DNA of 64,000 nucleotides from Lentisphaerota bacterium (GTDB lineage: Bacteria; Verrucomicrobiota; Lentisphaeria; Victivallales; UBA1829). The stretch covers positions 124,001 through 188,000 of the forward strand of contig SUVR01000003.1 in the NCBI GenBank assembly GCA_015061915.1. The letters run 5' to 3'. Within the stretch, counting starts at the first letter, position 1, and the number at the start of each line of letters is the position of its first letter. A program made the translations under genes and the position numbers. The notes under the pieces are model-generated. The model saw nothing but the letters and a program-made list of their open reading frames with translations. It was not told the DNA's origin and did not search any database. Shown here piece by piece: positions 40,530 to 63,335 of this stretch.

Positions 40530-40778
40530 GCGCTCCGGAGGAGCGCGGGATCACAGCCTATGGGCTTGCCCATAGGTTATGGATTCACCCACGATTTTGC
40601 GCTCTGCAGGAGCGCGGGAGCCGTCAGACAATTCCACCGTCTCCGGCACGCCTTCAGCGTGCAAATGGTATAGTATATCACTTTGACCTATGGGCAAGCC
40701 CATAGGCTATCATCTGGCACGCCTTCAGCGTGCTTTTCGCACCATCATTTATTTTCCTCAAACAGTTGGTTTGAGGAG
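40530..40778. repeat. Tandem array of short palindromes (three types, each present twice, plus a terminal palindrome)
   Basis: GCGCTCC-gga-GGAGCGC (40530-40546) and GCGCTCTgcAGGAGCGC (about 40599-40616); CCTATGGGC-tt-GCCCATAGG (40557-40576) and CCTATGGGC-aa-GCCCATAGG (40687-40706); GCACGC-cttca-GCGTGC (40646-40662 and 40717-40733); CTCAAAC-agttg-GTTTGAG (about 40757-40776). Confidence 0.9.
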
Positions 40779-40899: not shown

Positions 40900-41120
40900 A
40901 GCACCCCATACCTTTTGGCGTGGCAAACAAATCCCTTCGTGCCGCAACGAAACGAAGTTGAGTAGAGCGGCACAAATAAGAGGGCGCTTTGCGCCCCTGT
41001 TTTTGACGGCTCCCCCCCTTACCCCCATCATGCGATTGGTCGCCCGTCAAAAACAGACCCGTTCGGATCACCGGGGAACGTTTCCCCGGCGACATTAAGG
41101 TACGGAGCGTCAAAAAAAAG
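40900..41120 (-). repeat. Dispersed structured repeat, copy A
   Basis: Minus-strand TTTTTTTGACGCTCCGTACCTTAATGTCGCCGGGGAAACGTTCCCCGGTGATCCGAACGGGTCTGTTTTTGACGG... matches 62636 onward almost exactly; 13-bp inverted repeat CTGTTTTTGACGG (40997-41009)/CCGTCAAAAACAG (41044-41056). Confidence 0.92.
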
Positions 41121-41123
41121 TAC

Positions 41124-41160
41124 AAAAAAACACCCCGCAGACGGTTTGTTGCGGGGTGTT
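41124..41160 (-). terminator. Rho-independent terminator downstream of the epimerase gene
   Basis: Minus strand AACACCCCGC...GCGGGGTGTT followed by a T-run. Confidence 0.85.
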
Positions 41161-41188: not shown

Positions 41189-42112
41189 TTACTTGCCGAG
41201 GGCTTCCTTGTAAGCCTTCACAGCGATTTCCAGACCTTCATCGAAGGTGTAGGAGGGCTTGAAGCCGGTGGACATCAATTTATCCACGCAAGCGCTGGAG
41301 TGCTTCACGTCGCCAGCCCGTTCCGGCAGGTGGACGATCTTCGACTTGCTGCCCAGGATCTTCACGATCTTTTCTGCCAGATCGTTGATGGTGAGGCGTC
41401 CGCCGTATGCCACGTTGTACACGCCGGTGAAGTCGCTTTCCGCCATAAAGGCATTGGCTGCGGCGATGTCCTTCACGAAGATGAAGTCGCGGGTCTGTTC
41501 GCCGTCGCCGAAGATGGTGATATCTTCATTGTTCAGCGCCTTGGTGATGAAGATGGGCACAGCAGCAGCGTATGCGCTCTTCGGGTTCTGGCGGGGACCG
41601 AACACATTGAAGTAGCGCAGGCACGCAGTCTGGAGCTTGCCTTCTTTGGCGAACATATTGCAATAGTATTCGTCATCCAGTTTCGTGATTGCGTAGGGGC
41701 TCTTCGGTTCCGGATACATGGTTTCGACCTTGGGGCAAACCGGATTGTCGCCGTAGATGGCGGCGCTGGTGCTGAGAACCAGTTTTTTGCAGCCGGCTTT
41801 GGCGGCTTCTTCCAGCACGGTGATCATACCGACGCTGTTGAGGCGGTTGCATTCCAGGATCTCGGTCATGGATTCCGGCACGGAGATCATGGCGGCAAGG
41901 TGGAAGATATAGTCCACACCTTCCACGGCGCGGGCAACGTCATCCCGGTTGGTGATGTCGCCCTGGATGAATTCGCAGTCGAAGTTCTTGATGTTGTCAA
42001 CGAAACCGGAGCGCAGGTTGTCCAGCACGCGGATCTCTGCCTTGCCCTGATAACGTTCAACGATATGGCTGCCGATAAAGCCGGCACCGCCGGTAACGAG
42101 GATCTTTGTCAT
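41189..42112 (-). CDS. NAD-dependent epimerase, UDP-glucose/UDP-HexNAc 4-epimerase-like
   Basis: ILVTGGAGFIGSHIVERY Rossmann motif; YAITKLDDEYYC (YxxxK); FNVFGPRQNPKSAYAAAVPIFI. Confidence 0.9.
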   Translation of the reverse strand: MTKILVTGGAGFIGSHIVERYQGKAEIRVLDNLRSGFVDNIKNFDCEFIQGDITNRDDVARAVEGVDYIFHLAAMISVPESMTEILECNRLNSVGMITVLEEAAKAGCKKLVLSTSAAIYGDNPVCPKVETMYPEPKSPYAITKLDDEYYCNMFAKEGKLQTACLRYFNVFGPRQNPKSAYAAAVPIFITKALNNEDITIFGDGEQTRDFIFVKDIAAANAFMAESDFTGVYNVAYGGRLTINDLAEKIVKILGSKSKIVHLPERAGDVKHSSACVDKLMSTGFKPSYTFDEGLEIAVKAYKEALGK

Positions 42113-60722: not shown

Positions 60723-60839
60723 ATATAATAGGCGCTGGATGTTTTTTGAAAAAAGAATGTCCAACGTTGTGCGTATTTTTTTTGATAACAAATAACAAAA
60801 AAATAAACTAAAAACCCGATAGAAGTGGGGGAAGAAACA

Positions 60840-62570
60840 ATGAAAAAAATCTTAACTATGGCAGGCATTATGCTCGCCGGTCTTGCTGCTCTGACTGGCT
60901 GTAAGACCCAGGAAGACTACGCAAATGATCGCGCGGTCAATGCAGTCCAGCACTGGGAACAGTCCCGCTGGAACAAGTTTGATGAAAAGCACGAGTTCAA
61001 ACTGGAAGAGTGCATCAGCCTCGCCATGGAACACAACCTGGACATCAAGGTTGCCAAACTCGAAGAAGAAGTCACCCGCAATCAGATGATTGCCGAAGCT
61101 ATGGGTATGCTGCCCGAGCTTACTGTCTCCAATAACTACAGTCATCGTGACAACACGGCTGCTTCCAGCAGCAAGTCTGTGTCCGAAGGTGGTGCCACTT
61201 ACAACTACTCCACTTCCACCGAACGCGATATTAACTATTTGAATATTGACCTGGCACTCAGCCTTATGGACTTCGGTCTGGCTGCTGCGAACACGGTTCA
61301 GGCAAATGACCGCACTCTGATCCGCGAACAGCGTACCCGCAGAGCTGCTCAGAACCTGCAGCTGGATGTGGTCCGCGTTTACTTCCAGGTCGCTGCCGCT
61401 CAGAAAGCCATCACCATCACCAATGATCTGCTCAATAAGTGCAAAACCCGCTATGAACTGATCCGCGAAATGGCTCAGAAGAAATACATCGACCCCTTCC
61501 GGGCATTCGATGAAACCCGTCGTTTCGTTGATATGGAAAAGCGCCTGACCAACTACACCCGCAGCTATGACAACAGCCGCGCTGAACTCCGCGCTCTCCT
61601 CGGCCTCGCCGGCAGCAATGACATCATTGTGGATTCCTCCATGCTCAATGTGGATATGCCCCCGGTGTTCGATCTGCCCTCCATCGAAGTTCAGGAACAG
61701 ATCGCTCTTCTCAACAGACCGGAACTCTATGAAATCGATATGACCCGTCACATCAACGTGGTGGAACTCTACAAGACCATCATTATGATGTTCCCGAACG
61801 TCCGTATGTACCTCGATTTCACCAACAGCACCAACAGCTTCCTCTACCACTCCAGCTGGATGGAAATCGGTATCCGCGCAGCTTACAACCTGCTCAAGCT
61901 CCCGCAGCAGATCATGCGTGCCCGCAGCTACTACAAGCAGATCGAAGCGGAAGATGCCCGCAACTATGCCCAGGCGATCGGTATCATCGCTCAGGTCCGC
62001 ATTGCCAATGCGAACCTCAAGAGCATGAGAGACCGTTTTGTGCTGGATAACAACATCTACAAAGCATACAGCGAAAACCTGAAGAATGCGGAAAAAGGCA
62101 TCAAGTCCGGTACCGGTCTGACCCAGCTGGAACTTGACCACATCCGCCTTGCCACTGCTGAAACCCAGATCGAACGCCTGATGTCCCTCGGCAACTACTA
62201 TGTGGCATACTACCGCGTCCTCAACACGATGGGTATCGATGGTACCAAGATCGGTGCAAACGACAGCTTTGTGAAGGCCTGCCAGCAGAAGCTGGAAGCC
62301 GCCCGTGCGGAAGCCGAAGAAGGTATCCGTGAAGCTTGGGAAGTTGCCCGTCAGGAAAAGTGGGTCGATATCCCGGTTGCTCCCCCCAGCGTTGCCAAGA
62401 AGGCAGCTCCGGCAGCAAAGCCCGCAGCCAAAGCTGTTGCCAAACCGGCAGCGAAACCCGCAGCTAAAGCTGTTGCCAAACCGGCAGCAAAGCCCGCAGC
62501 TAAAGCTGTTGCCAAACCGGCAGTGAAACCCGCAGTGGCTGCTCCGGCAAAGGCACCGGTGAAGAAGTAA
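60840..62570 (+). CDS. TolC family outer-membrane efflux lipoprotein with Ala/Lys/Pro repeat tail
   Basis: Lipobox-like LAALTGCKTQ; OEP-type helical repeats (LEECISLAMEHNLDIKVAKLEEEV..., ALLGLAGSNDI); C-terminal (AAKPAAKAVAKP)n. Confidence 0.88.
   Translation: MKKILTMAGIMLAGLAALTGCKTQEDYANDRAVNAVQHWEQSRWNKFDEKHEFKLEECISLAMEHNLDIKVAKLEEEVTRNQMIAEAMGMLPELTVSNNYSHRDNTAASSSKSVSEGGATYNYSTSTERDINYLNIDLALSLMDFGLAAANTVQANDRTLIREQRTRRAAQNLQLDVVRVYFQVAAAQKAITITNDLLNKCKTRYELIREMAQKKYIDPFRAFDETRRFVDMEKRLTNYTRSYDNSRAELRALLGLAGSNDIIVDSSMLNVDMPPVFDLPSIEVQEQIALLNRPELYEIDMTRHINVVELYKTIIMMFPNVRMYLDFTNSTNSFLYHSSWMEIGIRAAYNLLKLPQQIMRARSYYKQIEAEDARNYAQAIGIIAQVRIANANLKSMRDRFVLDNNIYKAYSENLKNAEKGIKSGTGLTQLELDHIRLATAETQIERLMSLGNYYVAYYRVLNTMGIDGTKIGANDSFVKACQQKLEAARAEAEEGIREAWEVARQEKWVDIPVAPPSVAKKAAPAAKPAAKAVAKPAAKPAAKAVAKPAAKPAAKAVAKPAVKPAVAAPAKAPVKK
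62412..62519 (+). repeat. Three in-frame 36-bp tandem repeats encoding AAKPAAKAVAKP
   Basis: GCAGC(A/G)AA(G/A)CCCGCAGC(C/T)AAAGCTGTTGCCAAACCG at 62412, 62448 and 62484, then a partial fourth unit. Confidence 0.95.
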
Positions 62571-62598: not shown

Positions 62599-62631
62599 CG
62601 GTTCCGATCATCAGGTCGGAACCGTTTTTTT
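62599..62631 (+). terminator. Rho-independent terminator after the tolC-like gene
   Basis: CGGTTCCGA(62599-62607)/TCGGAACCG(62616-62624) followed by TTTTTTT. Confidence 0.88.
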
Positions 62632-62635
62632 ATAC

Positions 62636-63040
62636 TTTTTTTGACGCTCCGTACCTTAATGTCGCCGGGGAAACGTTCCCCGGTGATCCGAACGGGTCTG
62701 TTTTTGACGGGCGACTGATCGCAGTATGGGGGTAAGGGGGAGCCGTCAAAAACAGGGGGTGCAGAGCACCCTCTTACTTGTGCCGCCCAACTCAACTGCG
62801 TTTCGTCGCGGCACGGGAAGATCTATTTGCCACGCCAAAAGGTTCGGGGATGCAAAGCACCCTCTTACTTGTGCCGCCCAACTCAACTGCGTTTCGTCGC
62901 GGCACGGGAAGATCTATTTGCCACGCCAAAAGGTTCGGGGCGCAAAGCACCCTCTTACTTGTGCCGCCCAACTCAACTGCGTTTCGTCGCGGCACGGGAA
63001 GATCCATTTGCCACGCCAAAAGGTTCGGGGTGCAAAGCAC
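62636..63040 (+). repeat. Dispersed structured repeat, copy B, continuing into ~90-bp tandem repeats
   Basis: 62636 onward matches copy A; 13-bp inverted repeat 62698-62710/62743-62755; CTCTTACTTGTGCCGCCCAACTCAACTGCGTTTCGTCGCGGCACGGGAAGATC(T/C)ATTTGCCACGCCAAAAGGTTCGGGG recurs at 62771, 62862 and 62952. Confidence 0.95.
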
Positions 63041-63335
63041 CCTTTTCATTGTACGGCTACCGCGGTCGCTGAAGCTATGGCGGGACAAGCAGCTTCGCAA
63101 GCTCGCTTGCCGTACGGAGGGATTTTGTTTGCCATATATGAAACAATGCAGCGCTCGCTTGCGACACATAGGAGTTTATTTTACTCATGGTTCGGACCCT
63201 TCGGACGAAAAGGCTCATCCCAGTCATCCCAGTCTTCTCATAAGAGGGCTGTTGCGGCATACTTTGTGTGATCCGGGATAAAATCAGGAGAATATGTCCC
63301 TGTTAAAGTTTTTTTTCGCAGTTGATGTTCTCTGC

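Follow-up and report, generated by a model that had tools for sequence, protein, structure and literature searches.

The window, that is, the whole stretch of 64,000 nucleotides analysed here, belongs to genome G000 (2.49 Mb in 31 contigs, 97% complete) and carries two copies, A and B, of a structured repeat, the first behind an epimerase-like gene on the minus strand and the second behind a TolC-like gene on the plus strand. The features of the two loci are as follows.

41131-41158, minus strand: intrinsic terminator stem-loop of the epimerase-like gene (ORF 41189-42112, minus strand), stem CACCCCGC..GCGGGGTG, d-score 47, 0 of 200 shuffles as good
41124-41130, minus strand: T-tract (T7) in the register common to all copies, 4-5 nt before the element (register analysis, 16 sites)
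40997-41118, minus strand: conserved core of copy A, TTTTTTTGACGC ... CCGTCAAAAACAG (covariance-model match G000:C9:164997-165118 and alignment)
41067-41093, minus strand: hairpin 1 of copy A, with 12 bp and an ACG loop
40997-41056, minus strand: hairpin 2 of copy A, CTGTTTTTGACG(g)GC / GCCGTCAAAAACAG; its loop, TGGGGGTAAGGGGGGGA, is G-rich
40901-40996, minus strand: single hairpin unit behind the copy A core, matching the copy B units as a direct/inverted repeat
62599-62624, plus strand: intrinsic terminator stem-loop of the TolC-like gene (ORF 60825-62570, plus strand), d-score 55, 0 of 200 shuffles as good
62625-62631, plus strand: T-tract (T7) in the common register, copy B (register analysis)
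62636-62755, plus strand: conserved core of copy B (covariance-model match G000:C9:186636-186755, E 7e-36)
62661-62687, plus strand: hairpin 1 of copy B (pair analysis)
62698-62755, plus strand: hairpin 2 of copy B (pair analysis)
62756-63043, plus strand: tandem array after copy B, in which Tandem Repeats Finder counts 3.2 repeats of a 90-nt hairpin unit at 96% match

The blocks quoted for the two copies in a preliminary description of this DNA were found as given, and their near-identity was borne out, the arms at 41014-41129 and 62625-62740 being 92% complementary over 116 nt. As described there, the terminator stems before the copies (41131-41158 and 62599-62624) are unlike, and both elements begin in the same orientation and at an equal point, located here at 4 nt past the T-tract; the 13-bp inverted repeat is real, as is the 8-bp palindrome, which forms part of a longer 12-bp stem. 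The 90-nt unit of the copy B array contains GGGTGC..GCACCC and GTGCCGC..GCGGCAC hairpins. Rfam gave no match at the gathering score in the window, nor for three loci when E was relaxed to 1. The TolC-like protein itself ends in a repetitive, KPAAKAVA-rich tail (window positions 62397-62547; 12-bp and 36-bp DNA repeats).

BLAST of the element against its genome and relatives, proposed earlier as a check, identified 14 cores in G000 and 10 in G001, in agreement with the covariance model. G001 is the sister species and the sole other species of the genus compared (72% complete); its contigs agree with the records for Lentisphaeria bacterium RGIG8655, obtained from water-deer cecum, and its count of 10 is to be read as at least 10, several copies being cut by contig ends. 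All 14 copies in G000 matched the covariance model at E 1e-24 or better and consist of a core of about 120 nt with no gene inside. With 14 genomic copies the element is far beyond chance, and because their flanks are unrelated, a single segmental duplication, the trivial origin considered in the preliminary description, was ruled out. The covariance-model search of 137 genomes of the order returned no match outside G000 and G001, and a pattern-based search of about 85,000 GTDB species returned 10 stretches in RGIG8655 and 22 matches elsewhere. The latter, none in Lentisphaeria, resemble the motif over at most 18-22 nt and were treated as chance, as was a match in G013 (L025) comprising 24 nt of the T-rich start alone. 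The viral contigs, phages and plasmids searched yielded no matches, and a phage, plasmid or viral origin was rejected on that ground. Judged from these searches, the element is restricted to one genus of uncultured gut Lentisphaeria.

The order of parts within the core is TTTTGTTTGACGC - hairpin 1 (12 bp) - CTGTTTTTGACG(g)RC - variable loop - TGGGGGTAAGGGGG - GYCGTCAAAAACAG. Across 21 distinct copies, standard pairing was found in 546 of 546 pair cells, with changes on both sides at four pairs and at none in slid controls, and with a covariation score of 0.068 against 0.027 for shuffled data. In hairpin 1 both-side changes occur at 3 pairs among the 21 copies and 100% of cells are paired, and in hairpin 2, which has 14 pairs, one pair shows a both-side change (G-C to A-T in 3 copies). 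The evidence that compensatory changes keep the two core hairpins appears good but not abundant, and comes largely from one old lineage (L015 and its orthologue L054; for one pair also L013). An outer stem, TTTGACGC / GGAGCCGTCAAA, which forms in some single-sequence folds, is absent from the consensus fold and was discarded. At the two ends of the core, TTTGACG and CGTCAAA form terminal inverted repeats of only 7 bp, and a further copy is located internally.

In most copies the core is directly followed by a short hairpin, in the versions GGGCGC/GCGCCC, GGGTGC/GCACCC or CACCCC/GGGGTG, and then by further hairpin units, the array behind the 5' core comprising a variable number, from 0 to about 6, of tandem units of about 90 nt; no array follows the core in the divergent copies L013, L015 and L054. 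Hairpin units without a core are rare (G000:C1:46371-46485; a case in G001:C66 is cut by the contig end). The composite of core and array has no matching outer ends, the inverted repeats of the core not lying at its outer end, and the candidate 3' motif TTCGGACnnTTCGGAC is also found alone at other places. TTCGGAC repeats were considered as the 3' end of the element and rejected: they stand behind many copies, yet also alone after other genes, and are treated here as a small repeat in their own right. Short tandem TTCGGACnn repeats occur behind genes with or without a core (L149, L159, L161 and many cores, e.g. L002, L005, L009).

Placement was analysed at 16 non-orthologous sites (the 14 of G000 plus L047 and L048 of G001) aligned on TTTGACGC. 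Automatic calls took many antisense ORFs, and the direction of the genes was therefore assigned by visual inspection, with stop codons and recognisable proteins as guides. At all 16 sites the order is a T-tract at -16 to -11, about five unconserved bases and T4-G/A-TTTGACGC; at least 4 T in the 6 positions from -16 to -11 were present in 16 of 16, compared with a mean of 0.45 and a maximum of 5 of 16 at background offsets of -300 to -60. An upstream gene or rRNA ends in the same sense at 15 of the 16 unrelated sites, convergent gene pairs flank most of them, and L009/L049 adjoins the start of a divergent gene. When the sites were tabulated against terminators, the fixed register of the T-tract held throughout, but the tract was the U-tract of a terminator, with the stem ending right before it, at only 5 of 16 (L001, L004, L011, L013, L048), where five different stems occur, each with 0 of 200 shuffles as good. 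At L002, L003, L005, L008, L010 and L015 the terminator lies some tens of bases farther upstream and at L006 about 85 nt upstream, in each case with a separate T-tract at the register; at L007, L012 and L047 no terminator was evident from the stop codon to the element. T-tracts as such are preferred; terminators often supply them but are not the rule. The earlier proposal of a mobile element targeting terminator T-tracts thus stands as regards dispersal, a single orientation relative to upstream transcription and species-specific occupancy, but the tract need not be that of a terminator. Because of the terminator cases and of two unoccupied orthologues in G001 (L091, L092), the sequences suggest that the T-tract is the target and not part of the element. 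Alternatively, the T-tracts, phased at about 10 nt, might be a bent-DNA feature that has been retained.

Six sites with homologous flanks are occupied in both species (epimerase, rho, L005, L008, L009, L015), so these insertions are older than the species split. L013 and L011 are occupied in G000 only, their G001 orthologues (L091 and L092, respectively) showing the terminator, the T-tract and GT(A) and no element, and L047 (pyrF; L047/L088) and L048 (L048/L087) are occupied in G001 only; with two species compared, gain and loss are not separable at these differing sites. The comparison of orthologous loci proposed in the preliminary description therefore furnished unoccupied loci, but no exactly matching empty site or target duplication, the right flanks being non-homologous or diverged. 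At the gene end represented by L087 in G000 and L048 in G001, the former has a GC-rich palindromic repeat with A/T-tracts and the latter the element, a difference that amounts to fast repeat turnover at one site.

Divergence between orthologous copies was 0.083 at rho, 0.058 at L009 and 0.042 at the epimerase gene, and in 3 of the 6 orthologous pairs a paralogue at 0.025-0.042 was closer than the orthologue to each or one member, which, from few differences, suggests gene conversion or replacement among copies. The G001 contig L049 combines the left flank of L009 with the right flank of L012, which in G000 are inverted relative to each other and 15 kb apart; the sequences are best explained by a rearrangement with its breakpoint at the element, via homologous recombination, an assembly error at the repeat being less likely. 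The corresponding apparent inversion between L009 and L012 covers G000:C10 134.4-149.6 kb compared with L049/L052 in G001. Contig breaks of G001 likewise coincide with element copies.

The reading preferred here, to which a probability of roughly 0.6 is assigned, is that of an ageing, gene-less, non-autonomous MITE- or BOX-like element with T-tract-directed insertion, which spread in the ancestor of the genus and whose copies are now recombination sites. Spread would have taken place in that ancestor and probably to some extent later too, catalysed in trans by a transposase or another enzyme. Entry would have been 4-7 nt past a same-strand T-tract, which would have served as insertion target instead of being carried by the element. 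Intrinsic terminators would be a common intergenic source of such tracts and 3' regions would tolerate inserts, which together would explain why the element lies behind genes and in sense to their transcription. Its copies would now be mostly inherited, partly homogenised within each species, and would serve as sites of homologous recombination. A stricter formulation, a one-sided targeting rule by which an unrecognised enzyme places the 5' end 4-7 nt past any same-strand T-tract and terminators are merely frequent, nearly harmless landing sites, is put forward tentatively. The fixed register turns a loose impression of proximity to terminators into a testable insertion rule, which would explain how a repeat can spread without harm to genes; the element also adds a structured repeat family for Lentisphaeria, in which the literature search found none, and marks points of recombination, given the contig breaks of G001 and the one rearrangement that coincide with its copies.

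That the repeat is instead an RNA module kept by selection, its two hairpins protecting or processing mRNA 3' ends after readthrough or terminator-less transcription, is unlikely. Covariation preserves the structure, the module would sit in sense behind genes at 15 of 16 sites, three of these (L007, L012, L047) without a terminator directly between stop codon and element, and six sites are retained in both species. However, DNA palindromes in mobile elements likewise show paired changes, the terminators that precede the element at five sites are strong (d-scores 44-61), so that little transcription is expected there, and one site (L009/L049) is beside a divergent gene start. Occupancy also differs between the sister species at housekeeping genes such as pyrF, Rfam holds no relative, and scores for internal terminators lie under the threshold or close to it. 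Protection of mRNA 3' ends at sites lacking a terminator of their own is possible on the predicted structures.

A REP/BIME-like or PATE-like element moved as single-stranded hairpins by an IS200/IS605-type or RAYT tyrosine transposase is distinctly unlikely. In its favour are the two hairpins, whose feet bear short conserved motifs, the strand-specific position within T-rich sequence, the failure to see a target duplication and a degraded IS200-like gene in G000; this broken gene, away from any copy, is the sole Y1 transposase match in that genome, and RAYT was rejected as the mover on that account. No intact Y1 transposase was found in G000 (97% complete), in G001 (72% complete) or beside a copy, nor a Y1 transposase flanked by the repeat; the core alignment contains no 20-40 bp palindrome with a GTAG (or CGTC) tag, and the hairpin foot bears no GTAG-type tag. 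We know of no outer T-tract rule for this class. The enzyme survey covered Y1 transposases and the reverse transcriptase domain RVT_1; RVT_1 was absent from G000 and present once in G001, and SINE-like reverse transcription was rejected. Outside cores, the 12-mer CTGTTTTTGACG occurs only twice per genome, in unrelated sequence, and the assembled parts of G000 and G001, both incomplete, contained no autonomous relative, no lone ends and no end-motif copy linked to a transposase. Since neither an autonomous relative in the assembled part nor an intact Y1 gene was found, the non-autonomous element has probably ceased to move or else relies on an unrecognised enzyme.

Quite improbable is a portable two-way terminator for convergent genes, in which U-tracts for both directions would come from CTGTTTTTG, present in one arm and mirrored in the other, hairpin 1 acting in sense and the GGGCGC/CACCCC hairpin just past the core in antisense. 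Convergent genes do flank most sites, and the antisense hairpin, as GGGCGC, GGGTGC or CACCCC, directly precedes CTGTTTTTG in most copies, scoring -17 to +11; these are weak values against 44-61 for host terminators, the sense side scores mostly -19 to +1, the 95% level for shuffled sequences lies at -4 to -10, and L013, L015 and L054 are without the antisense hairpin. In neither sense nor antisense did the element attain a host-like d-score, and by these predictions it would be a weak terminator at best. The remnant of a group IIC intron, a class that inserts in sense after terminators and thus resembles the element in its placement behind terminator hairpins and T-tracts (PMC3898094), is close to refuted, as the element is only 120 nt long, a hairpin directly before the T-tract is missing at 11 of 16 sites, and neither a group II intron match in Rfam (E up to 1), a domain V intron core in Rfam nor a reverse transcriptase (RVT_1) in G000 was found.

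The preferred reading, a T-tract-directed non-autonomous element, was compared with published systems, and the literature on insertion elements aimed at terminators offered analogies, none matching the element. BOX of Streptococcus pneumoniae, a family of non-coding intergenic repeats of the form boxA-boxB(n)-boxC, is similarly short, genus-limited, structured if transcribed and composed of a fixed 5' module followed by variable internal modules (PMC3049150), whereas the present array has no established conserved 3' module, no target duplication was seen here, the sequences are unrelated and a fixed T-tract lies 5' of the element. SPRITE of the same species occurs near gene 3' ends, linked to terminators and T-rich sequence, and is likewise dispersed and enriched there, with the empty site and target duplication undefinable in both cases (PMC3049150); SPRITE is itself terminator-like, however, and in the present case any terminator is that of the host gene, with the element located past it. 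The BrickBuilt MITE of Porphyromonas gingivalis, 10 of whose 19 copies have predicted terminators or polyadenylation sites around them, has the same layout of a leader followed by a minisatellite array and is also entirely intergenic (PMC4596501), but possesses terminal inverted repeats and 23-nt units where the present element has hairpin units of 90 nt and a T-tract in fixed register. GTAG- and CGTC-tagged REPs are also dispersed extragenic palindromes, CGTC REPs having no dedicated transposase (PMC3733652), but they are single palindromes of 20-40 bp with an unpaired tag, while the CGTC of the element is inside a paired arm of a 120-nt core. Unlike group IIC introns, the element has no intron RNA or reverse transcriptase and does not require a hairpin before the T-tract. 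By analogy, its layout resembles BOX and BrickBuilt and its placement SPRITE; because the defining features of each system were lacking or undecided, it was filed as a non-autonomous dispersed intergenic element and not assigned to BOX, BrickBuilt, SPRITE or group IIC introns.

A second palindromic dispersed repeat (GCACGCTGAAGGCGTGC ... CCTATGGGCTTGCCCATAGG) was observed at window positions 40530-40733, at L149 and behind the array at L002 and L053. It occupies the same intergenic regions, and several repeat families seem to accumulate behind genes in this genus.
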